Source of the DNA: a virus
Reading direction: 5' to 3' (one strand)
IMG/VR virus record: IMGVR_UViG_3300034375_009985
Coordinates: 1-28,161 of that record
Length of the DNA: 28,161 nt
A program made the position numbers and the translations under genes. The notes beneath the pieces were generated by a model. The model was not told where the DNA came from, did not search any database, and saw nothing but the letters and a program-made list of their open reading frames with translations. Shown in pieces: positions 1-28,161 of this stretch. Each line of letters begins with the position of its first letter. Position 1 is the first letter of the stretch.

Positions 1-1308
1 ACGAAGACATTAGATATCTTTACTGAGATAGACAACCCTGGCCCAAATAGAGGAATTATACAGTTCTTAACCCCAGGATCTGCTAAATTTGCATCATACT
101 ATGTACAGGGTGCATCAAATAATAGCACATGGTTTGAACTAGATATAGAATTTATTGATAAAGGTGGATCTGGCACAGGCCTTACTGACGGTAATGAATA
201 TTGGGTAGGACTTAATGTAATTGGTGATGCAGGTCCATCAGGATCTAGTGGTTCTTCAGGAACTAGTGGAACATCAGGTTCTTCAGGATCTAGTGGCTCT
301 TCAGGATCATCAGGATCTTCTGGATCTTCTGGATCATCAGGAATCTCAGGTTCAAGTGGTTCTTCAGGAACTAGTGGAACATCAGGTTCTTCAGGATCTA
401 GTGGCTCTTCAGGATCATCAGGAATCTCAGGTTCAAGTGGTTCATCAGGAACTAGTGGAACATCAGGTTCTTCAGGATCATCAGGCTCTAGTGGTTCCTC
501 AGGATCTAGTGGAACATCAGGAACATCAGGTGCAGGAACATCTGGTTCTTCTGGATCATCAGGAAGTTCTGGTGTATCTGGAGGTAGTGTAGCTAGATTT
601 AATGGGTATGATGATGGTACTTTAAATACAACTAATTTCGCTACCCAAGGTTTAACATCAGATGTTTTTGTTTCGCATACACAATATGGTTTAGACCCTT
701 CAACCAACTCCCTTTATTACGATCATACGAATAATACTTCTGTTATTGAGATTCTGCAAGATGGATATTATATAATTAGCTCTAATGTTAATTACGTTGT
801 TGGAGCATCTAGGTCTGGGATGAGGTCAACAATGCAGCAAAATCTTTATATTAATAATGTTGTTGTAGATTCTTCTAAGTCTGATACTTACTCAAGAGGT
901 AGCTTATATAATGATGAAATTAATACGATATCCACTGGTTATTTTTATTTATCAGCGAATGATCAAGTAAAAATGAGGGTAACATCAGCACGGATGGATA
1001 GTAGCGGTACTGGAACTGTAGCGGTCACTGATGCTGTTATTAATATTGCTCGGATATCAGGAGCAGCAGCTGCTTCTGGTTCTGACGGAGCACAGGGAGC
1101 AGCAGGAGCAGCAGGAGCACAGGGAGCACAAGGAGCATCAGCAGCATCAATACCGTGTGATGGATCGTGTACGGCTACTGAAGGTGGTCCCCCATCATTG
1201 TACATCGGGGCTGATTCTAGCGTTTATCTTGCAGAACCTCATGTGTGGTTCCGAATTGAATGTGAGGAAACAACATATAACATTCCTGGATACAATTGTA
1301 CACCGTAA
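1..1308 (+). CDS. Collagen-like tail fibre / virion appendage protein, 5'-truncated
   Basis: Frame 1 is open from the first base of the window to TAA at 1306-1308 (435 codons), so the true start lies upstream; the ATG at 820 is internal. Residues 1-76 are an ordinary globular segment. About residues 77-197 are perfect Gly-X-Y triplets, almost all GSS, GTS or GIS, with almost no proline. Residues about 200-354 look like a beta-sandwich of the C1q/TNF type (DGYYIISSNVNY near 255, then YLSANDQVKM, ending VINIARIS). A second, different Gly-X-Y run of GAA/GAQ follows at about 360-380, and the C-terminus holds four cysteines. Collagen stalk plus C1q-like head is known from BclA-like and phage fibre proteins. 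I infer a trimeric surface fibre. It lies next to a glycosyltransferase island, and its Ser/Thr triplets are plausible O-glycosylation sites. Function is inferred from composition and fold pattern only. Confidence 0.75.
   Translation, partial: TKTLDIFTEIDNPGPNRGIIQFLTPGSAKFASYYVQGASNNSTWFELDIEFIDKGGSGTGLTDGNEYWVGLNVIGDAGPSGSSGSSGTSGTSGSSGSSGSSGSSGSSGSSGSSGISGSSGSSGTSGTSGSSGSSGSSGSSGISGSSGSSGTSGTSGSSGSSGSSGSSGSSGTSGTSGAGTSGSSGSSGSSGVSGGSVARFNGYDDGTLNTTNFATQGLTSDVFVSHTQYGLDPSTNSLYYDHTNNTSVIEILQDGYYIISSNVNYVVGASRSGMRSTMQQNLYINNVVVDSSKSDTYSRGSLYNDEINTISTGYFYLSANDQVKMRVTSARMDSSGTGTVAVTDAVINIARISGAAAASGSDGAQGAAGAAGAQGAQGASAASIPCDGSCTATEGGPPSLYIGADSSVYLAEPHVWFRIECEETTYNIPGYNCTP
241..591 (+). repeat. 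In-frame Gly-Ser/Thr-Ser triplet repeat tract with larger direct repeats
   Basis: The coding tract is made of 9-nt units of the form GGA/T-TCW-TCW or GGA-ACT/A-AGT/TCA. On top of the 9-nt unit, longer near-identical blocks recur: about 66 nt starting at 250 returns at 358 (offset 108 nt, 12 triplets), and about 67 nt starting at 331 returns at 412 (offset 81 nt, 9 triplets). All offsets are multiples of 9, so copy-number change would keep both the reading frame and the collagen register. Confidence 0.85.
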
Positions 1309-1329
1309 AAAGTGGAATAGATTAATGTT

Positions 1330-1584
1330 ATGAAGGAAGTACCTATTGTAGACATGTCACTTTTACAAATGTGCAAGAATTTTGTTGGCGATAAAGAAAT
1401 TTCGAGAATTGAAATTATCAATAAGGAGGGTATAGTTTTAAATGCATATGATTATTCCAAATCTACGGGTGATCATATTCCAAGTGTGATTTTTTCTATG
1501 TCCGATATTCTAGGTAATTCTAATTCGATGGTTAGTAACCACAATACAACTCAAAAGGTTAATGAATTCCCAGGATTACTTTAA
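1330..1584 (+). CDS. Small hypothetical protein (84 aa)
   Basis: I do not recognise this gene. It lies 21 nt after the fibre gene and ends in TAA. The start at 1330 follows the A+T-rich leader GATTAATGTT with no Shine-Dalgarno motif, as for most genes here. The 84-residue product is soluble, with no membrane segment or signal peptide. Its sequence suggests a small alpha/beta fold: a strand-like stretch ISRIEIINKEGIVL near residues 33-46, a second hydrophobic stretch at SVIFSMSDIL, and a polar Asn/Ser/Thr-rich C-terminus. Its place directly behind a fibre gene would suit a fibre-associated or assembly factor, but that is positional inference only. Confidence 0.55.
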   Translation: MKEVPIVDMSLLQMCKNFVGDKEISRIEIINKEGIVLNAYDYSKSTGDHIPSVIFSMSDILGNSNSMVSNHNTTQKVNEFPGLL

Positions 1585-1601
1585 ATAATTGAAAACCTTT
1601 G

Positions 1602-1661
1602 GATTGTTTGGCGTATAAGAATAAATCATTATTGTAATTCTATATGAAGGTCCAAACAATC
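1602..1661 (+). promoter_or_regulatory. Inverted repeat enclosing the start codon of the oxygenase gene
   Basis: GATTGTTTGG at 1602-1611 is the exact reverse complement of CCAAACAATC at 1652-1661. Inside it, TATAAGAAT (1614-1622) can pair with ATTCTATA (1637-1644) with one bulged A. The ATG at 1644-1646 lies at the base of the inner stem, so a transcript could fold with its start codon partly paired. This is seen in the sequence; a regulatory role is inference, and the outer stem has only four G-C pairs. Confidence 0.35.
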
Positions 1662-2222
1662 ATTATAGACGATTTCTATAAAAATCCCGATGATGTAAGA
1701 TCATTTGCTTTAGCCCAAGAATTTAGTGCTCGTGGGAATTACCCCGGGCAAAGAACGGTATCTTTTTTAGCAGATAACGTAAAGAATTCTATTCAGGATA
1801 TAATTAGACCTTATGGCGGAGAGGTTACTTGGTGGGGTGATGATTCAACTGGGTCGTTTCAATACACGGTCGCTGCTGATAGATCATGGATTCATAGCGA
1901 TGACACAACAGATTGGGCTGGGGTTCTTTATTTAACTCCTGATGCACCCCTTTCTGCAGGTACTGGTCTTTTTAGACACAAAGAAACTGGCCTTAATAGA
2001 TGGAGAAATTCTGAGCATCCTGATGAGGTAGCTAAAGCATCCCCTGTTAATATAGATTCACAAGATATGACCAAATGGGAGATGGTTGATAAAATTGGTA
2101 ATGTTTATAATAGACTTGTGATTTATCGGGGTGATTTATTTCATGTTTCTTTGGACTATTTCGGACAAGATAAAAATGACGGCAGGCTATTCCAGGTTTT
2201 CTTTTTCAATACTGAAAAATAA
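1644..2222 (+). CDS. 2-oxoglutarate/Fe(II)-dependent oxygenase (DUF6445-like)
   Basis: This 192-residue protein resembles the small phage/cyanophage 2OG-Fe(II) oxygenases. The expected metal ligands are visible: H84-x-D86 in the segment WIHSDDTTDWAG, and the distal H167 in GDLFHVS. R181 in NDGRLFQVFFF is placed to bind the 2OG carboxylate. The conserved stretch LYLTPDAPLSAGTGLFRHK (about 95-113) between the ligands is typical of the family. Family members hydroxylate proteins or small molecules using 2OG and O2; the substrate cannot be read from sequence. The neighbouring Ser/Thr collagen repeat has almost no Pro or Lys, so classic collagen hydroxylation is unlikely there. Its stop TAA abuts the ATG of the next gene, indicating translational coupling with the glycosyltransferase operon. 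Confidence 0.8.
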   Translation: MKVQTIIIDDFYKNPDDVRSFALAQEFSARGNYPGQRTVSFLADNVKNSIQDIIRPYGGEVTWWGDDSTGSFQYTVAADRSWIHSDDTTDWAGVLYLTPDAPLSAGTGLFRHKETGLNRWRNSEHPDEVAKASPVNIDSQDMTKWEMVDKIGNVYNRLVIYRGDLFHVSLDYFGQDKNDGRLFQVFFFNTEK

Positions 2223-3521
2223 ATGCTAATCGTTAAAAGACCGACTGCTATTGTTTTTGGTTGGGATAAGCCGAGTGGGAATTATGAATTCGTTACTACA
2301 GTTTATTCTTCGGTTGAAAATAACATGCAGTGGGTGAATTTGATTTCTATTGACATAATTGATGTAGACCATAAGGTACTATCAGATTTAAACATCAAAC
2401 ACACTCCTGATGTTTTCGTTTTTATTGGTAGTAAGTATGATCAAATGCATTCGCATTTTGATAGAATGGTTATCAAATACGATCAAATCCCAGATCCTGA
2501 CACACTTGCTAATGATGTGGTGGTTAAGACAGTAGACGTTCGTACAAACCCACACATTCCTCTTTTCAGTATTTTTACCCCTGCTTTCAAAACGGGAGAG
2601 AGAATATTTAGAACTTATCAAGGAATAGTAGATCAGAGTGAAACAGATTGGGAGTGGGTTGTTGTAGACGATTCGCCTTCAGACCATAACGACTTATGGC
2701 ATGATCTTCAAAAGATAGCTTCCAGGGATTTAAGGGTTAAACCATATAGAATAACACCAAATACCGGGGGGTTTGTAGGAATGGCTAAGAAGAGGGCCTG
2801 CTCTTTGTCTAGCGGTAAATGGTTGGTAGAACTTGACCATGATGACTATTTATTGGATAATTGCTTGGCTAAAATTAAATCTGCTAGTGATAAATTTCCT
2901 GATGCTGGATTCATTTACAGTGACTGTACAGAAATGTTTGAGAATGGGAAATTTATAAGATATGGTAGCAAAGATGAAAAATACGATGGTAATTTCTATG
3001 GTGTTGAAGGCAACAACTTTAACTTTGGGTATTCTGGACACTCTTGGGTTAATATAAAGGGTAAAAGATATCTAACACATCACTATCCCTCTATAAATCC
3101 GATTACTATTAGATTTAATATTTCAATGCCAAATCATGTTAGGGCTTGGAGGTCTGATATTTATAAAAAAATCGGAGGGCATGCTGAAAGCCTACCAATA
3201 GCGGATGATCTAGAATTAATCATTAAAACTTTTCTCGAAACAAGGATAGTCCATATTAAGGATTTGCTATATGTTCAATATAGAAATGGCTACGGGACTG
3301 TTAACTATAACTCTTTCGAAATTAATAGGATTTCTAGGATTTTAAAAGAACAATATAACGAAGCAATACATAACAGGATAATCGAGTTAGGGTTCCATGA
3401 TTGGGAGTGGGACGAAGAAAAGAGAACTAATAGGCACCAAGAGGCTATAATGAATACTGACCTTAGTGATATAAAGTTCTGGGAGGATGAACAGGTTTTG
3501 AATTATGTATATGATGAATAA
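2223..3521 (+). CDS. GT2-family glycosyltransferase (A) with extra N-terminal domain
   Basis: Residues about 112-300 form a GT-A type catalytic domain of family 2. The nucleotide-sugar-binding segment WVVVDDSPSD has its Asp pair at 149-150, and the metal-binding D-x-D is in LVELDHDDYLLD (D205, D207, D208). The acceptor-side acidic motif is probably SLPIADDLELI, near residue 325. The first 110 residues are not part of a standard GT2 domain and I cannot assign them; they contain alternating strand-like segments (TAIVFGW, PDVFVFIGS). No membrane segments are seen, so it would act in the cytoplasm. The start is fixed by the directly preceding stop (TAA-ATG, no gap), and the end overlaps the next glycosyltransferase. 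It probably transfers a hexose-type sugar to a glycan or virion protein; donor and acceptor are unknown. Confidence 0.85.
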   Translation: MLIVKRPTAIVFGWDKPSGNYEFVTTVYSSVENNMQWVNLISIDIIDVDHKVLSDLNIKHTPDVFVFIGSKYDQMHSHFDRMVIKYDQIPDPDTLANDVVVKTVDVRTNPHIPLFSIFTPAFKTGERIFRTYQGIVDQSETDWEWVVVDDSPSDHNDLWHDLQKIASRDLRVKPYRITPNTGGFVGMAKKRACSLSSGKWLVELDHDDYLLDNCLAKIKSASDKFPDAGFIYSDCTEMFENGKFIRYGSKDEKYDGNFYGVEGNNFNFGYSGHSWVNIKGKRYLTHHYPSINPITIRFNISMPNHVRAWRSDIYKKIGGHAESLPIADDLELIIKTFLETRIVHIKDLLYVQYRNGYGTVNYNSFEINRISRILKEQYNEAIHNRIIELGFHDWEWDEEKRTNRHQEAIMNTDLSDIKFWEDEQVLNYVYDE

Positions 3522-4707
3522 GAGGGCTAAAATTTGCATGAATGCCATGGTAGCTAATGAATCCCGTGTTATTCTGAGAATGCTTGAATCTTGCTATCAA
3601 TACATTGATTATTGGGTTATACAAGATAACGGCTCTACTGATGGTACCCAAGATCTTATTAGAAATTTCTTTTCTCAAAAGGGGATACCTGGATACCTGT
3701 ATGAAACTGAATGGCAATATCCTGGATTTAATCGAGATCACACTTTGCAAGAATGTTTAAAAGCTGATCATGGTTGTGATTGGATTTTAAGGATGGATGC
3801 AGATGAACAACTGGCTGTTGATGATAATTTTGATTGGTCTTTGATTAACGACACATCCATTCAAAGTTTTAATATTACCGCTCAGGACCCGGGTGGAATA
3901 TATTATAGAACTTGGCTTTGGAATGCAAAATTGCCATGGTATTTCAAGCACGACAAAAGGCATGAGACAATTTATCTTTCTGGTCACAAAAAAGGGGAGG
4001 GTAATTTTCAGGTAATTAACTTACCCCGTGGGTTTAGACATGTCATTACAAATGACGGTAAAACTTGGGAAGACCCTTTAAAGTTTTTAAATGATGCTCT
4101 TTTACTTGAAGCTGATCAGGTTTGTTCTGGGAAGATAAAAGAGGATGATTACCATCTTTTCTATATTGGTAAAAGTTATGCTGATATTTATCAGAATGGA
4201 AATCTCCCGTTTGGCAAAAATCATGGTGATGAATACGCTAGAAGGACTATATATTACCTTGAACATTATGTGAGAAGGAAATTCCCAGTTTATGATAATG
4301 ACTCACCTCCTACAGTGTTTGATGAGATGTGTTACCTTTCTATAGTTCTTATCGGACAAGCACATAGATTTATAGGAAATCGAGATCTCGCATATAAAAG
4401 GCTTGAACAAGCTGACTGGTATTGTCCGGATAGAAACGAGCACTGGGTTATTTTGGCAGAGATGCTCTTTGAGGACCAAAAATTTCATAGGATGTATGAA
4501 ATAACATCAATGCTCATGAGAGATGATAGGATATGCCCATTTCCTGAATTTCATTTTTTACTCTGGACCTCTTGTTACAAGGATACCTCTGATTATGTAG
4601 AATTTCTGTACAACGAATCGATGAAATTTGTGGAACTAATTGAAACCCGAGCAGATCAAAATAATTTAAAAACTATGGAAGACGCTTACTTTCCTGGTGA
4701 AATTTAG
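3505..4707 (+). CDS. GT2-family glycosyltransferase (B) with TPR-like C-terminus
   Basis: The N-terminal GT-A domain starts at once: ICMNAMVANESRV is the typical opening of SPBc2/WaaE-type GT2 enzymes, followed by VIQDNGSTDGT (residues 38-48) and the D-x-D motif in LRMDADEQL (D98, D100). Residues about 270-400 are helical and contain pairs resembling tetratricopeptide repeats (AHRFIGNRDLAYKRLEQA, then WVILAEMLFEDQKFHRMYEI), common at the C-end of this subgroup. Three in-frame ATGs (3505, 3511, 3514) lie inside the end of the upstream gene. The last two give shorter overlaps of 11 or 8 nt and are at least as likely as 3505. Cytoplasmic, no signal or membrane segment. Being a second GT2 in one operon suggests stepwise building of an oligosaccharide. 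Confidence 0.85.
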   Translation: MYMMNKRAKICMNAMVANESRVILRMLESCYQYIDYWVIQDNGSTDGTQDLIRNFFSQKGIPGYLYETEWQYPGFNRDHTLQECLKADHGCDWILRMDADEQLAVDDNFDWSLINDTSIQSFNITAQDPGGIYYRTWLWNAKLPWYFKHDKRHETIYLSGHKKGEGNFQVINLPRGFRHVITNDGKTWEDPLKFLNDALLLEADQVCSGKIKEDDYHLFYIGKSYADIYQNGNLPFGKNHGDEYARRTIYYLEHYVRRKFPVYDNDSPPTVFDEMCYLSIVLIGQAHRFIGNRDLAYKRLEQADWYCPDRNEHWVILAEMLFEDQKFHRMYEITSMLMRDDRICPFPEFHFLLWTSCYKDTSDYVEFLYNESMKFVELIETRADQNNLKTMEDAYFPGEI

Positions 4708-4717
4708 ATAAAAACAT

Positions 4718-4993
4718 ATGGAAAACAATCAAACAAAAATAACATCTGAGGAGTTGGAAAAAATTAACTCCTTAAGAACCGAAATTTTAGAAAATGTTGA
4801 ATCGATAGGTAGACTGAATATTAGAAAGCATTTTCTGGTAAAAGAACTCGAGCCAATAGAGGCAACTCTGATATCATTGCTTCAAAAGTCAGAAGAACTG
4901 GACACACAGGAGAAGGATGTAATAGATGAGATCATTCAGAAATATGGGGAAGGCCAGTTAAATTTTGAAACTGGTATTTACACTAAAGAATAA
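4718..4993 (+). CDS. Small coiled-coil protein (91 aa)
   Basis: The product is mostly predicted coiled coil: heptad-like Leu/Ile spacing runs from about residue 12 (EELEKINSLRTEILENVES) through about 75. It then ends in GQLNFETGIYTKE, a short strand-and-turn tail. Similar small coiled-coil proteins with a G-x-x-N-x-x-T-G tail are common, unassigned, in T4-like marine phages. It sits 10 nt after one glycosyltransferase and 3 nt before the next, inside the operon. It may be an adaptor or a fibre-trimerising chaperone; that is a guess from shape and position. No catalytic motif is visible. Confidence 0.6.
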   Translation: MENNQTKITSEELEKINSLRTEILENVESIGRLNIRKHFLVKELEPIEATLISLLQKSEELDTQEKDVIDEIIQKYGEGQLNFETGIYTKE

Positions 4994-4996
4994 TAA

Positions 4997-6049
4997 ATGA
5001 AAGAGATTGAGGCTTTAAGAAAAACCAAATATGAATTGGTAAGAACAATCAATTCTATACAAAAAACATTAGATGAAAAAACCGGTGGAAAAAAGAGAAT
5101 TCTTTTCGTTGCTCCACATCTTTCGACTGGAGGAATGCCTCAATACCTGTACAAAAAAATAGAGTCTTTTAACGAAGAAGCTGAAGTTTATTGCATACAA
5201 TATAGCAATACTTCAGAGGAGTACGTGGTACAAAGAAATAGGATAAAGGATAAAATAGGTGCAAAATTCTATTGTTTGGGTAATGACAAAACCGAGATTC
5301 TTGATCTCATTGAGAAGATTTGTCCCGATGTTATACACTTTGATGATTTTGTCGAATTCTTTGTGGATTCCAAAATCATAGAAAAAATATACGAGACTGA
5401 TAGGCCTTATTTTATAGTTGAAACCTGTCATAGTTCGAATATTTCACCGTTGGATAAAATCTATTGCCCAGATAAACTTATTATGGTAAATGAGTGGATG
5501 TGCGACAGATTTGAAGATCTTGGAATACCTGTTGATATCTTAGAATATCCAATTGAGGACTTCCAAAGGCCGGATAGAGAAACTGCATTGACCGAATTAG
5601 GACTTGACCCTGAAAAAAAGCATATAATAAATATTGGGTTATTTACTCCTGGAAAAAACCAGGGTGAATTAATTGAATACGCTAAAAATCTTGTAGACTA
5701 CCCTATTCAATTCCATTTCATTGGAAATACTGCACCAAATTTCCAGGGTTACTGGCATCCTTTGTTAGCTGATCTTCCGGATAATTGTAAGCTTTGGGGT
5801 GAAAGAAATGATACTGATAATTTCTATAAAGCTGCAGATTTATTTGTATTTACCTCTAATTGGGAGTTAAACCCTATTATAATTAAAGAAACACTATCAT
5901 GGAAACTTCCCATTCTTATGAGAAGGCTAGAGCCTTATAAGGATACTTATGATAATAATCCGCTGGTCACATATCTAAGTCCTAGTGGAGTGTTTAGTGA
6001 TACTGATGACAATATCCAAAAAATTAAAGATATACTCGAATTAAAATGA
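4997..6049 (+). CDS. GT4-family (GT-B fold) glycosyltransferase
   Basis: A GT-B retaining glycosyltransferase of the GT4/RfaB type. After a 30-residue coiled-coil-like leader, the N-terminal Rossmann domain opens with ILFVAPHLSTGGMPQYL (35-51), containing the Gly-Gly loop that contacts donor phosphate. The C-terminal donor domain contains NIGLFTPGKNQGELI (K220 in the GT4 basic position), then ADLFVFTSNWELNPIIIKE, giving the canonical E-x7-E pair at E290 and E298. Length 350 is normal for the family. The leader resembles the coiled coil in the gene just upstream, so the two products might interact; that is inference. Its stop overlaps the next start (ATGA at 6046-6049), a sign of translational coupling with the heptosyltransferase. 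Confidence 0.85.
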   Translation: MKEIEALRKTKYELVRTINSIQKTLDEKTGGKKRILFVAPHLSTGGMPQYLYKKIESFNEEAEVYCIQYSNTSEEYVVQRNRIKDKIGAKFYCLGNDKTEILDLIEKICPDVIHFDDFVEFFVDSKIIEKIYETDRPYFIVETCHSSNISPLDKIYCPDKLIMVNEWMCDRFEDLGIPVDILEYPIEDFQRPDRETALTELGLDPEKKHIINIGLFTPGKNQGELIEYAKNLVDYPIQFHFIGNTAPNFQGYWHPLLADLPDNCKLWGERNDTDNFYKAADLFVFTSNWELNPIIIKETLSWKLPILMRRLEPYKDTYDNNPLVTYLSPSGVFSDTDDNIQKIKDILELK

Positions 6050-7227
6050 GAGAAAGAGGGCTAAAGGTTTACGAGAATTTAACAAAATCAAAAACGGTAA
6101 GGTTTAGACATCCGTATACATTTGATTTTACCTTTGATTATGGACCTAAGGTTGACTGTATAGGACCTAGCAATACTCAGCCATGTACTGTAAAATTTAA
6201 GGATTTAAGAACAGGAACCTATGGATATACTGGTGAGACTTCATCGGGTCTGTTCACTAAACTTTTCAGAAAGTGGTTTACTCCTTGGAGACTTGAAGTA
6301 TACGATGGTGAGGAATTAATTTACGAGAGAGATCTTGAAGATGTTATCTCAGAGGAAAAAGTATGTGTAAGTATAGAAAGCAGCTCACTTGGAGACACGC
6401 TAGCATGGATGCCTGTTATAGAAAAATTTAGGAGAAAGTATGACTGCGATCTCTATGTAACTACATTTTGGAATGAGCTTCTTGCTAACTATTATCCTTT
6501 CATAAGGTTTAGATCACCCGGGTCAAGAGAGATCAATACAAAAGTTATATTTGGTGTGGGGTGGTATGACGAGGATGACCGCGATAGACATAGGAGGGAT
6601 CCGAGATCCATTTCATTACAACAGGTTGCTGGTGATATTTTGGGAATAGAAATTGACGGGGATATACTAAATGATACTGTCCCATCTACAATCCAAAACT
6701 CGACACCTACAATTGAAGGAAAATATGTTTGTTTGGCAATGGATTCTACTGCTAATGCTAAACACTGGCACTATGAGGGCGGCTGGCAGAAGATTACTGA
6801 TTATTTAAATTCAATAGGTTATAAGGTTGTTGTTGTACAAAAGCAGGGAACAAATTTAAATGGAGTGATTGACAAAACTGGAGATATTGATATTTTGCAA
6901 AGAGCCATTGACATTTATCACTCCGCTTTCTTTATTGGAATAGGGTCTGGTCTAAGCTGGCTTGCTTGGTCACTACACAAGCCAGTTGTAATGATATCTG
7001 GTTTTTCGGATCCCAGATGTGAATTTTCTACTAAAAACTATAGAATCATAAACCGCGATGTCTGCCATGGTTGCTTTAGCGACCCATCTATTAAATTTGA
7101 TAAAGGTGATTGGAATTGGTGTCCAAGGCTAAAGGACACAGAAAGGATGTTTGAGTGTACAAAAACAATTACCCCTGAGATTGTACAAAGTCATATCAAC
7201 GATCTGATAAAAGATCACCTATCTTAA
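6046..7227 (+). CDS. TibC/Aah-type O-heptosyltransferase homologue (autotransporter heptosyltransferase family)
   Basis: Strong family signature. A catalytic-region SSLGDTLAWMP (113-123) puts an Asp at D117. The donor-binding segment KHWHYEGGWQKI starts at K239. GVIDKTGD (273-280) precedes FFIGIGSGLSWLAWSLHKPV (295-314), the most conserved block. The C-terminal iron site has four Cys at C340, C343, C359 and C371 (VCHGC, NWC, FEC). Known members (TibC, Aah, BAHTCr) are iron-containing ring-shaped enzymes that add ADP-heptose-derived heptose to Ser residues of autotransporter adhesins. The N-terminal about 100 residues form the beta-rich domain used for subunit contacts in that family. Its length (393 aa) matches TibC (about 400). 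No autotransporter is encoded here; the nearest Ser-rich surface protein is the fibre at 1-1308, so a virion substrate is my inference. It ends the operon. Confidence 0.88.
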   Translation: MRERGLKVYENLTKSKTVRFRHPYTFDFTFDYGPKVDCIGPSNTQPCTVKFKDLRTGTYGYTGETSSGLFTKLFRKWFTPWRLEVYDGEELIYERDLEDVISEEKVCVSIESSSLGDTLAWMPVIEKFRRKYDCDLYVTTFWNELLANYYPFIRFRSPGSREINTKVIFGVGWYDEDDRDRHRRDPRSISLQQVAGDILGIEIDGDILNDTVPSTIQNSTPTIEGKYVCLAMDSTANAKHWHYEGGWQKITDYLNSIGYKVVVVQKQGTNLNGVIDKTGDIDILQRAIDIYHSAFFIGIGSGLSWLAWSLHKPVVMISGFSDPRCEFSTKNYRIINRDVCHGCFSDPSIKFDKGDWNWCPRLKDTERMFECTKTITPEIVQSHINDLIKDHLS

Positions 7228-25364: not shown

Positions 25365-25382
25365 ATATCACAGGTGTGATAT
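25365..25382 (+). promoter_or_regulatory. Perfect 8-bp palindrome over the promoter box
   Basis: ATATCACA-GG-TGTGATAT is a perfect inverted repeat whose right arm merges with the GATATATAG box at 25378-25386. The 2-nt centre is too short for a good RNA hairpin, so a dimeric DNA-binding protein site is more likely. Confidence 0.4.
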
Positions 25383-25386
25383 ATAG
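25378..25386 (+). promoter_or_regulatory. GATATATAG box, candidate late promoter
   Basis: GATATATAG ends 22 nt before the ATG of the 917+ residue gene, in line with the other copies (22-26 nt at 12508, 18353 and 22991). Confidence 0.5.
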
Positions 25387-25408
25387 AAAGCAAAAAAACA
25401 CAAGTAGA

Positions 25409-28161
25409 ATGGACTTACTTAATCAATTAAAAACTCTTAGGGAAACAACCACTAATCCTGAGGTTAAATCGATTTGCGAATCTCACATTAATAAAATACA
25501 AAATGGGGAATCTGTAAATGAATCCGCAATCCTTGAATCTGTTGACCAGGTAGTAAAGGAAAGTGAAGGCGAAACCGCTGCAAATCCTATCGAAATGCTA
25601 AGACAGCAAGAAATAGAAAGATCTAAATCAGCAGCTCAAACACTAATGGAATCTTGGGGTGGTATTGGATCTAATACTTCTAAAAATTCAGGATCTTATG
25701 TAGACGGTAAGAAGGAAGAGGAACCTGAGATCTCAAACATCTCTGAAAGCTTAAAGGAGGTAGCGGAAAAAGATGCTTCTGCTAAAGCTTTCGTTGATTC
25801 TCAAGCTGTTAACAATTTAGGTATTTATGAGTCTATTCTATCTTTGAAAGGTACAGGCATCTATGAGCATCCAAATGTAAAGGTCCTTTGTGAGAAATTT
25901 ACTCACCTTTTAAAGAATAACAATATCCCAGAATTTCTACTTGCTGAATCTTTTGTGCAAGAACTACAAAACTTTAACTGGGATAACAAGGTAAAATCTG
26001 CACTTGAAGGCTTGAACGAAAGGATTTCTTCTCTTAGACCCGAGATTGAGGTTTCTAAAGCTTTATATTCTATTGAGAAGAATGCTGGAGCTGATTTCTA
26101 CTCCCCTGTAACCGAATCTCTGAACAAGTGGTTGGTATCAGAGAACAAGTCCGTTGCTCTACTTTCAAAAGAGATCTCTAGATGGTCTTTTAATCCTGTG
26201 GTAAGAAACCTTGTAAACAACCTTTCTTTGATGGAGTCTTCTGAGACTAAGCTTAGTATTCCTGTTAGCAACGGAAATTCTTCGGTTAGAAAGGTTTATT
26301 CTCCAGTCCATGTTAGTGGAGGTAAAACCGTATTTACTATTGGTAGTAACGTATTTGAAGGTAACTCAGAAGGAATTAAGAGACTTTCAAATGTTGAGTA
26401 TGCTGCATTACCAGAATCATTTAGATCCTTACTAGAGTCATTCTACTCTCCAATGGTTAAGATAAACGAAAGTGGTTTAAGCTTCTATGTTGGAAACAGC
26501 AGCTTTAAGATTGTTGAAGAGTCTGATTCAGTATCAATCTATTCCAAAGAGAATAAGATTAACTTTAGTGACACTACACAGTTGGCAAAGCAGATAGCTT
26601 TGGAAATATCTGGAAGCTTGGGAGTTAATGAATCAAAAGCAGTTTCTGACATCATTAATCTTTACAACAACTTCTCAAATGTTGTTGAGCTTGATTTCGC
26701 TAAAAGATTAGAGTCCAAAGTTTTTGAAGGTGTATCAGTAAACTTGATCAAGTGGAATTCAAACCTTTACCTTAACAGGATCAACGAAGGAATGAACGAG
26801 AATTCTTTATTCCAAGTAAATGGTACACAAGCTACTTCAATGGTTAAGGATCTTATGAAATATGATATTTCTGAAGGATTAACCGAGTTCTTGGATGGTG
26901 AGAATAGAATTAAGTCAATCATGCTTAACGATAGAAAGCAAATTATTGACAATATTTCTATTGTGGAAAATGAGATTAACAAGATCTCACAAGCAATGGC
27001 TACAAACCCACTTTACGAAAACTCTAAAGAAATGGCAAGAGCCAAGCATATGCTTGAGCAAGAACTATCTTCGCTTAGAAAAAAATGGGCGGCAGTTAAC
27101 GAGGAGATTGAAAAAATCGAATCATCTTCTGTAGAAGTAGATGATCTTAACGAGGATCAGAAATTCACGGTTGGTGATTACGTAAAGGTAAAAGAGTCTG
27201 GAAATACTGGAAAGATTATTTCTATGGATAGCACCTCAGGTTCTTACACGGTCTTAATGGATAACGGAAGAACTGGTGATTTCAGGATGGATGAAATCGT
27301 TGATATTGAAGAAGCTCTAAAATCTGCTGGTGAAGAAAATCAGGAAGCTGATGAAACTCAAGAGGAGGTTAAAGAGAACGAAACACCTATTGAAACTACT
27401 GAGGAAAATACGGAGGATGCTTTAGAAGAGTCCTCACAGGATATGGCGGTAGCTCCTGAGAACAAAACAGCATCTGAAAAAGATAAAACTCCAGCTGCTA
27501 CCCTTAAAGCAAATACTTCTGAGGCACCTGCAGCTAAGGATCAAGATGAAGCCGGTAAAAGGGACATCGAGAAAGAAGATCATGCTAATCTAGAAGAAGC
27601 ACCGGAAGGAAGTGAGAAGGAAACAGACTATAGCGTTAAGCTTAAGGATTCTTTGGTTGATAAGATTGGATATAACGTAAATGAAAATACAGAGGAAGCG
27701 GAGTCAGCTGATAATGAAATGGCTACAGCTCCTTCCGAAGGAAATTCAGAACTTTCCGAAAGAGACGTTGAAAACACAGATCAGCAATTAGCAGAAGCCC
27801 CAGGCGGAAGAACACACGCAGATTACGATGTAAAGGCAGCAAAGGCAGATGAGAAAAACCCAGATATGGTAAAGACCGATCCAGAAATGGCATCTGCCCC
27901 TGGCGATGGTACTGATAAGGAATTACATCACGAAGTTGGTGGAGAGATGGGATATAACATCGACGAAGCTGATGACATGGAAAAAACAGATCAACAATTA
28001 GCAGTTGCCCCTGGCGGTGAGCACAAAGCAGAATATGATGTTGAAGTAGCTAAGGCAGAAAAAGCAGCAGCCGATATCATGAAAACTAACCAGGAATTAG
28101 CAGAAGCACCAGCAGCTGGTACTGAAGCAGAAACTGATTTAGAAGTTAACCCAGAAATGGG
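25409..28161 (+). CDS. Large structural-type protein with KOW-like domain and acidic Ala-Pro repeats, 3'-truncated
   Basis: Frame 2 is open from ATG 25409 to the window end (917 full codons, no stop), so the gene is longer. It starts MDLLNQLKTLRETTTNPEVK. Residues about 1-560 are alpha-rich with no membrane segment or enzyme motif. A coiled coil lies near 515-575 (IDNISIVENEINKISQAMAT, then MLEQELSSLRKKWAAVNEEI). Residues about 579-635 look like a KOW/SH3 barrel (FTVGDYVKVKESGNTGKI, then YTVLMDNGRTGDF). From about 675 onward the protein is acidic and disordered, with repeated TDQQLA-x-APGG-type units. Regular use of a narrow codon set suggests high expression. It could be an internal head or core protein or an extended virion protein; I do not recognise it. 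Confidence 0.75.
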   Translation, partial: MDLLNQLKTLRETTTNPEVKSICESHINKIQNGESVNESAILESVDQVVKESEGETAANPIEMLRQQEIERSKSAAQTLMESWGGIGSNTSKNSGSYVDGKKEEEPEISNISESLKEVAEKDASAKAFVDSQAVNNLGIYESILSLKGTGIYEHPNVKVLCEKFTHLLKNNNIPEFLLAESFVQELQNFNWDNKVKSALEGLNERISSLRPEIEVSKALYSIEKNAGADFYSPVTESLNKWLVSENKSVALLSKEISRWSFNPVVRNLVNNLSLMESSETKLSIPVSNGNSSVRKVYSPVHVSGGKTVFTIGSNVFEGNSEGIKRLSNVEYAALPESFRSLLESFYSPMVKINESGLSFYVGNSSFKIVEESDSVSIYSKENKINFSDTTQLAKQIALEISGSLGVNESKAVSDIINLYNNFSNVVELDFAKRLESKVFEGVSVNLIKWNSNLYLNRINEGMNENSLFQVNGTQATSMVKDLMKYDISEGLTEFLDGENRIKSIMLNDRKQIIDNISIVENEINKISQAMATNPLYENSKEMARAKHMLEQELSSLRKKWAAVNEEIEKIESSSVEVDDLNEDQKFTVGDYVKVKESGNTGKIISMDSTSGSYTVLMDNGRTGDFRMDEIVDIEEALKSAGEENQEADETQEEVKENETPIETTEENTEDALEESSQDMAVAPENKTASEKDKTPAATLKANTSEAPAAKDQDEAGKRDIEKEDHANLEEAPEGSEKETDYSVKLKDSLVDKIGYNVNENTEEAESADNEMATAPSEGNSELSERDVENTDQQLAEAPGGRTHADYDVKAAKADEKNPDMVKTDPEMASAPGDGTDKELHHEVGGEMGYNIDEADDMEKTDQQLAVAPGGEHKAEYDVEVAKAEKAAADIMKTNQELAEAPAAGTEAETDLEVNPEM
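27431..28161 (+). repeat. Degenerate Ala-Pro repeats in the C-terminal tail of the last gene
   Basis: Units of the form (T/A)(D/N)xx(L/M)AxAP appear at about 27434, 27581, 27707, 27776, 27875, 27986, 28085 and 28147. The last full units alternate in spacing, 99, 111 and 99 nt, so two different units make a 210-nt (70-residue) higher-order repeat. TDQQLA...YDV...AKA units alternate with T(D/N)xE(M/L)A units. The array continues past the window. Confidence 0.75.

Follow-up and report, generated by a model that had tools for sequence, protein, structure and literature searches.

A collagen-like fibre gene and the operon behind it

The window analyzed here is a complete IMG/VR record (IMGVR_UViG_3300034375_009985; 28,161 bases) that starts within the gene for a collagen-like fibre and continues into an operon of glycosyltransferases, the last of which belongs to the bacterial autotransporter heptosyltransferase family of the TibC/AAH type (BAHT; TIGR04414). 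A first-pass annotation of this DNA suggested that the operon glycosylates the fibre. Comparison of this locus with those of other viruses, at the level of genes and protein sequences, strongly supports a functional link in phages between Ser-rich collagen-like fibres and the pair formed by the BAHT and a glycosyltransferase of family 4 (GT4).

The fibre open reading frame (ORF; positions 1-1308) is truncated at its 5' end by the start of the contig; this gene and all those of the operon are on the plus strand. The visible part begins with an N-terminal domain (1-222), whose homologue in the longer fibres of the relatives L003 and L008 lies internally; next comes the stalk (223-582), with about 40 Gly-(Ser/Thr)-Ser triplets, nearly all of them Gly-Ser-Ser (GSS) or Gly-Thr-Ser (GTS), so that the third position is Ser nearly throughout. 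The Gly-X-Y repeat is recognized by the Pfam Collagen profile (residues 75-194, 5.4e-18; 65 bits against a cut-off of 27.2). The placement of this stalk directly before a glycosyltransferase operon, as first annotated, is real, and the triplet count is a lower bound: given the internal position of the homologous domain in the L003 and L008 fibres, and the Gly-X-Y runs of up to 193 triplets in close relatives, the complete stalk is probably longer. Downstream of the stalk lies a predicted head (580-1059), a TNF/C1q-like trimeric beta sandwich, for which an all-beta structural model of moderate confidence (predicted local distance difference test, pLDDT, 62.6) gave as best Foldseek matches the TNF-family ligands and the Bacillus exosporium proteins BxpB/ExsFA (E ~1e-5). 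The trimeric C1q/TNF-like fold is common on collagen-like stalks. The fibre ends with a second, short Ala/Gln-type collagen-like piece and a C-terminal cap (1066-1308) that is conserved in L008, L009, L010, L014, L023 and L105.

The operon is compact, with neighbouring genes abutting or overlapping at 2222/2223, 3505/3521 and 6046/6049. The core consists of the GT4 gene (4997-6049; PF00534, 1.5e-11) and the BAHT gene (6046-7227), whose start overlaps the GT4 gene by 4 bases. Upstream are two genes for family 2 glycosyltransferases (GT2), at 2223-3521 (PF00535, 1.2e-10) and 3505-4707 (PF13704/PF00535, with weak similarity, 0.001, to the SunS peptide glycosyltransferase), and a gene for a protein of the DUF6445/phrog_1644 family (1644-2222). 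The latter is a candidate Fe(II)/2-oxoglutarate-type oxygenase: it contains an HxD...H motif that is present in 11 of the 13 aligned rows and absent or altered in L112 and L096. The oxygenase named by the first-pass annotation is thus plausible, and as judged by this motif the protein is likely to be one. The operon make-up given there, namely the oxygenase, two GT2, one GT4 and a Ser-heptosyltransferase, stands but is incomplete, because two small genes also belong to the set. One of these, orf84 (1330-1584), for which family searches gave no significant family, evolves fast: its identity to the counterparts in relatives is 32-37%, as against about 90% for the structural genes; the other, orf91 (4718-4993), is retained beside GT4 in relatives. 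The genes for the two GT2s and the DUF6445 protein are restricted to near relatives and a few other records, including an odd one (L502), and for this reason look like optional tailoring steps; the GT2s, first named along with the GT4 as extenders of the glycan, are here placed outside the core pair.

A variant of the TibC family

The assignment of the 6046-7227 product to the TibC/AAH family is firm at the family level. The protein scores 271.6 bits with the TIGR04414 equivalog model, above its cut-off of 200, and only 25 bits with the heptosyltransferase I model, and TibC is its sole strong relative of solved structure (6e-56); all 20 members of our set A1 likewise match TIGR04414. The AlphaFold model (pLDDT 87.8) matches TibC over the full length with a TM score of 0.83, the next best matches being GT9/WaaC-type enzymes with E ~1e-9. 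The difference between the two profile scores, together with this gap between the folds, rules out a lipopolysaccharide (LPS) heptosyltransferase of the WaaC type.

Several residues are highlighted in the TibC structure, where most of them have been probed by mutation (PMC4358343). The window protein retains the counterparts of the catalytic Asp110 (D117), the donor-site Thr226 (T235), Lys230 (K239) and Trp305 (W305), and among 64 distinct phage BAHT domains these positions are conserved in 64, 63, 64 and 64, respectively. The four Cys residues of the iron finger (C340, C343, C359 and C371 in the window) are present in all 64 domains, and the adenine-contacting Arg286 has an equivalent in the window protein (R286). 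The window BAHT is predicted to transfer heptose to protein Ser. It is a variant BAHT that departs from the textbook members in the region of the thumb (see below).

The GT4 domain resides within the BAHT polypeptide in 36 of the 57 phage BAHT proteins that are distinct at 70% identity, and some of these proteins additionally contain an FkbM methyltransferase, GT25, GT32, GT9 or pyruvyl transferase domain. The overlap of the two genes in the window, the fusions elsewhere and these extra domains argue for successive steps on one glycan. In one BAHT protein (L481, 1175-5311; G007), an apparent intein with a LAGLIDADG domain (approximately residues 278-612) separates the GT4 and BAHT domains.

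Ser-rich fibres and BAHT genes in viral genomes

The co-occurrence test proposed in the first-pass annotation was run on three samples of viral contigs, each searched as entire records with TIGR04414: 50 large records picked by a DNA pattern of eight G-(S/T)-(S/T)-type triplets (GSS records), 50 records picked by a Pro/Ala collagen pattern, and 30 large records picked by an arbitrary 14-mer. A BAHT is encoded in 26 of the 50 GSS records compared to 1 of the 50 Pro/Ala-collagen records (Fisher p=6e-9), and among records of at least 60 kb, the counts are 21 of 29 and 0 of 15, respectively. Among the 30 random records, a single one (G144) carries a BAHT, and it is also the sole carrier of a GSS fibre in that sample, the two being about 5 kb apart. 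The association holds in the opposite direction as well, with the GSS pattern found in 26 of 35 records selected by their BAHT. The records are related to each other to an unknown degree; lineage effects on these counts are lowered but still partly present.

The two genes are also close to each other: in 15 of the 26 records, no more than 10 kb separates the BAHT from the sampled fibre, whereas 5.7 such records would be expected under uniform placement (2.6-fold, p=5e-5). Single-linkage clustering of the phage BAHTs at 50% identity yields 22 clusters, in 14 of which a GSS run is present within 10 kb, and the link is therefore spread over many BAHT groups rather than confined to one close lineage. 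Together with the GT4-BAHT fusions, the two-way co-occurrence and the proximity support the core of the first suggestion, in which the Ser-rich fibre of the phage itself would be primed by a TibC-like enzyme and its glycan lengthened by the GT4; a lack of co-occurrence in relatives had been named there as a refutation.

In the fibres of the GSS records (G001-G050), the X position is occupied by Ser or Thr about equally, and the Y position mostly by Ser (median fraction of about 0.8) with 0.02-0.04 Thr. This preference is present in fibres from records with and without a BAHT, so that it is no more than suggestive of a dependence on the BAHT. The fibre of L173, a record without a BAHT, is exceptional in having Thr as 0.93 of its Y positions.

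In bacterial assemblies, among 72 BAHT loci, GSS runs occur only in the five most phage-like ones (L521-L525, gammaproteobacterial contigs of metagenome-assembled genomes, MAGs, with L524 coming from a 308-kb contig), which are probably phage contigs mis-binned into bacterial MAGs. Conversely, TIGR04415, the strand-loop-strand target repeat of AIDA/TibA, is present in 11 of the 23 bacterial BAHT genomes and in none of the 50 BAHT phage records, a contrast that is indicative only, given the smaller size of the phage genomes. With this result, AIDA-like repeats were rejected as the phage-borne BAHT substrate.

The gene pair is found in an isolated phage, too. The 190-kb genome of Microcystis phage Mel-JY01 (PP395634.1; L505) encodes a GT4-BAHT fusion that its record calls 'methyltransferase FkbM', and 1.7 kb upstream of it there is an unannotated open frame of 1016 residues (2-3052) with long GTS/GSS stretches; this isolate makes the question of fibre glycosylation directly testable. 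A BAHT fusion and, at a distance of a few kilobases, a GSS run are also present in the 735-kb phage LR756501. The Mel-JY01 record lists antisense ORFs over the frame of the GSS fibre, and a long Pro-rich antisense ORF that crosses the GSS repeat of the window (99-707, minus strand) is almost certainly an artefact of the same kind, caused by the codon pattern of the repeat.

A putative virion glycosylation system and its alternatives

Taken together, these findings make it probable that the window encodes a virion fibre along with its own O-glycosylation cassette, in which the BAHT would initiate glycosylation on fibre Ser residues and the GT4 would extend the glycan. Under this scenario, in the infected cell and prior to assembly, the TibC-family enzyme would modify the Ser hydroxyls of the Gly-X-Ser triplets with a first sugar, probably a heptose donated by host ADP-heptose, and a second sugar would be added by the GT4, which is translationally coupled to the BAHT in the window and fused to it in most of the distant relatives. 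Lineage-specific, optional enzymes could then extend or cap the glycan, namely the two GT2s and the oxygenase-like DUF6445 protein in the window, and GT25, GT32, GT9, the FkbM methyltransferase or the pyruvyl transferase elsewhere. The benefit might consist in stiffening or shielding of the proline-free stalk. More broadly, we consider it moderately likely that large aquatic phages share a dedicated system of virion O-glycosylation, in which a thumb-less TibC-family enzyme primes Ser along Gly-X-Ser stalks that can reach 600 or more triplets in length, and multi-domain GT4-BAHT-methyltransferase proteins build a bottle-brush glycan on proline-free collagen, which would represent a new class of BAHT substrates.

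Several observations weigh against this interpretation or restrict it. The adenine-contacting Arg is kept in only 22 of the 64 phage BAHTs, with Thr in 28, and because it is replaced in most of the distant ones, the nucleotide donor may differ there. In TibC, a beta-hairpin thumb closes the dodecamer ring, its tip residues are required for activity on TibA, and the hairpin is reported to be conserved in bacterial BAHTs. In the window protein, the thumb is 9 residues shorter than in TibC and the model has no hairpin at this site; in 51 of the 64 phage domains, the thumb consists of 20-23 residues compared to 31 in TibC. With the thumb so shortened, the phage BAHTs are not expected to form the ring. 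As for the donor, among the 50 BAHT records, the search for ADP-heptose synthesis genes yielded weak rfaE-domain matches in 7 and none above the cut-off, so that a phage-encoded supply of ADP-heptose is not supported. In one of these records (G042), an RfaE-domain-II-like nucleotidyltransferase is encoded directly behind the BAHT (81415-81783); this protein might provide an activated sugar or act on the glycan itself.

On the fibre side, 24 of the 50 GSS records, including 8 of the 29 that are at least 60 kb long, encode no BAHT. With about half of the GSS-fibre records in this state, a BAHT is not obligatory for a GSS fibre, although part of the absence is due to fragmentation of the records (median size of 51 kb without and 87 kb with a BAHT). 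A limited local search beside the GSS fibres of the records that lack a BAHT detected almost no other transferases. The Ser/Thr content of the fibres is equal in phages with and without a BAHT; accordingly, we dropped the idea that the Ser content depends on the BAHT, and Ser-richness is not explained by this enzyme alone. Furthermore, the near relatives L009 and L010 have, in the visible 3' part of the fibre, mainly GAQ triplets with interspersed GSS; one BAHT record (G079/L502) has a fibre of the Pro/Ala collagen type nearby; and LR756504 carries a BAHT but no GSS run by the strict pattern.

Under one alternative, the cassette glycosylates another virion protein (capsid, tail tube or a different fibre), the GSS fibre being a mere neighbor in a variable host-interaction region. 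Some BAHT records indeed lack a strict GSS run, the distance between the BAHT and the fibre sometimes exceeds 25 kb, and there is a precedent in mycobacteriophages, where the C-termini of capsid and tail-tube proteins are reported to be glycosylated (Freeman et al. 2023, cited in PMC12619734). We nevertheless consider this explanation unlikely, because the association is specific to Ser-rich as opposed to Pro/Ala collagen, works in both directions and extends across most BAHT clusters. It seems less likely still that the transferases remodel surface glycans or an autotransporter of the host, resulting in superinfection exclusion. Such a role in host-surface remodelling has been proposed for pelagimyophage glycosyltransferases (PMC7029224), modification of the host O-chain is the published reading for phage transferases of this kind, and the GT2 and GT4 proteins are distantly similar to enzymes of polysaccharide synthesis (colanic and teichuronic acid transferases). 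The BAHTs, however, are a family of protein O-glycosyltransferases that stands apart from the WaaC-type LPS enzymes in both sequence and fold, the genes form a compact operon among structural genes, and the partner with which they co-occur is a Ser-rich fibre of the phage itself; the phage records lack the target repeat of the autotransporters, although a host copy would escape that search.

Shared ancestry, whereby a single group of large aquatic phages would possess GSS fibres and BAHTs without any functional link, could be invoked in view of the uncertain kinship of the records and the larger size of those with a BAHT. The effect, however, persists in the stratum of at least 60 kb, the majority of the 22 clusters have a nearby GSS run, the genomes involved include the 190-kb Microcystis phage and the 735-kb phage, and the two genes lie physically close, all of which makes this explanation quite improbable. 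Modification of phage DNA, a known role of some phage glycosyltransferases, can be practically dismissed: family searches of the operon gave no base-modification family, the characterized BAHTs act on protein Ser, and the associated gene encodes a fibre.

Thus, glycosylation of the phage's own fibre remains the preferred interpretation, and it can be set against the known systems. The phage enzymes resemble the TibC/AAH BAHTs (PDB 4RAP, 4RB4) in homology that extends over the full length and takes in the N-terminal barrel region, as well as in the catalytic Asp, Lys, Trp and Thr, the four iron-finger Cys and the equivalog score. They differ from these in being phage-encoded, in having as the partner a collagen-like GSS fibre instead of a strand-loop-strand autotransporter, in mostly lacking the dodecamer-forming thumb, in being usually joined to GT4 or other domains, and in the variability of Arg-286 outside the lineage of the window. 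What appears to be new, then, is a BAHT whose partner, predicted oligomeric state and fusion partners are unlike those of the described members. The mycobacteriophage system, as far as it is described in the citing paper, is similar in that phage-encoded transferases are thought to decorate the virion, but its targets are capsid and tail-tube C-termini, whereas the system proposed here would combine a TibC-family initiator with a Ser-rich collagen stalk. Phage collagen-like tail fibres (PF01391; phrog_5073, phrog_6320, phrog_1806) share the Gly-X-Y stalk, but the fibres in question are Ser-rich and linked to a glycosylation cassette, in contrast to the Pro/Ala type. O-glycosylated collagen-like stalks are known in BclA of the Bacillus exosporium, which has a TNF/C1q-like trimeric head, and in mimivirus collagens. 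BclA, however, has GPT triplets and different transferases, unlike the proline-free GSS stalk of the window with its Y-position Ser and its BAHT.

A search of the open-access literature, with preprints and subscription journals outside its range, found no paper linking BAHT/TibC with phages or with glycosylated phage collagen fibres, and we regard the novelty of the link as provisional; a broader query on virion glycosylation by transferases of phages gave mainly papers on animal viruses, without relevance here. Phage glycosyltransferases are usually interpreted as modifiers of host O-antigen or DNA; the link offers, for many environmental phages, a specific alternative that names a candidate substrate and initiating enzyme and would extend the TibC family beyond autotransporters. 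It might also account for the stabilization or masking of long collagen stalks that are rich in Ser and free of proline.

The remainder of the window encodes T4-like late proteins, including a head-closure/neck protein, the large terminase and the tail sheath. In the annotated phage collection, the nearest relatives of the large terminase include those of uncultured huge phages, Sphingomonas phage PAU, a Flavobacterium phage, Lak phages and Tenacibaculum phages, with 31-39% identity. The terminase gene is interrupted by an insertion in L501 (10222-12585) and split into two ORFs in L114 (3860-7469), possibly by an intein or intron. The last protein of the window (25376-28159), cut by the contig end, has degenerate Glu/Ala/Asp-rich repeats at its end.

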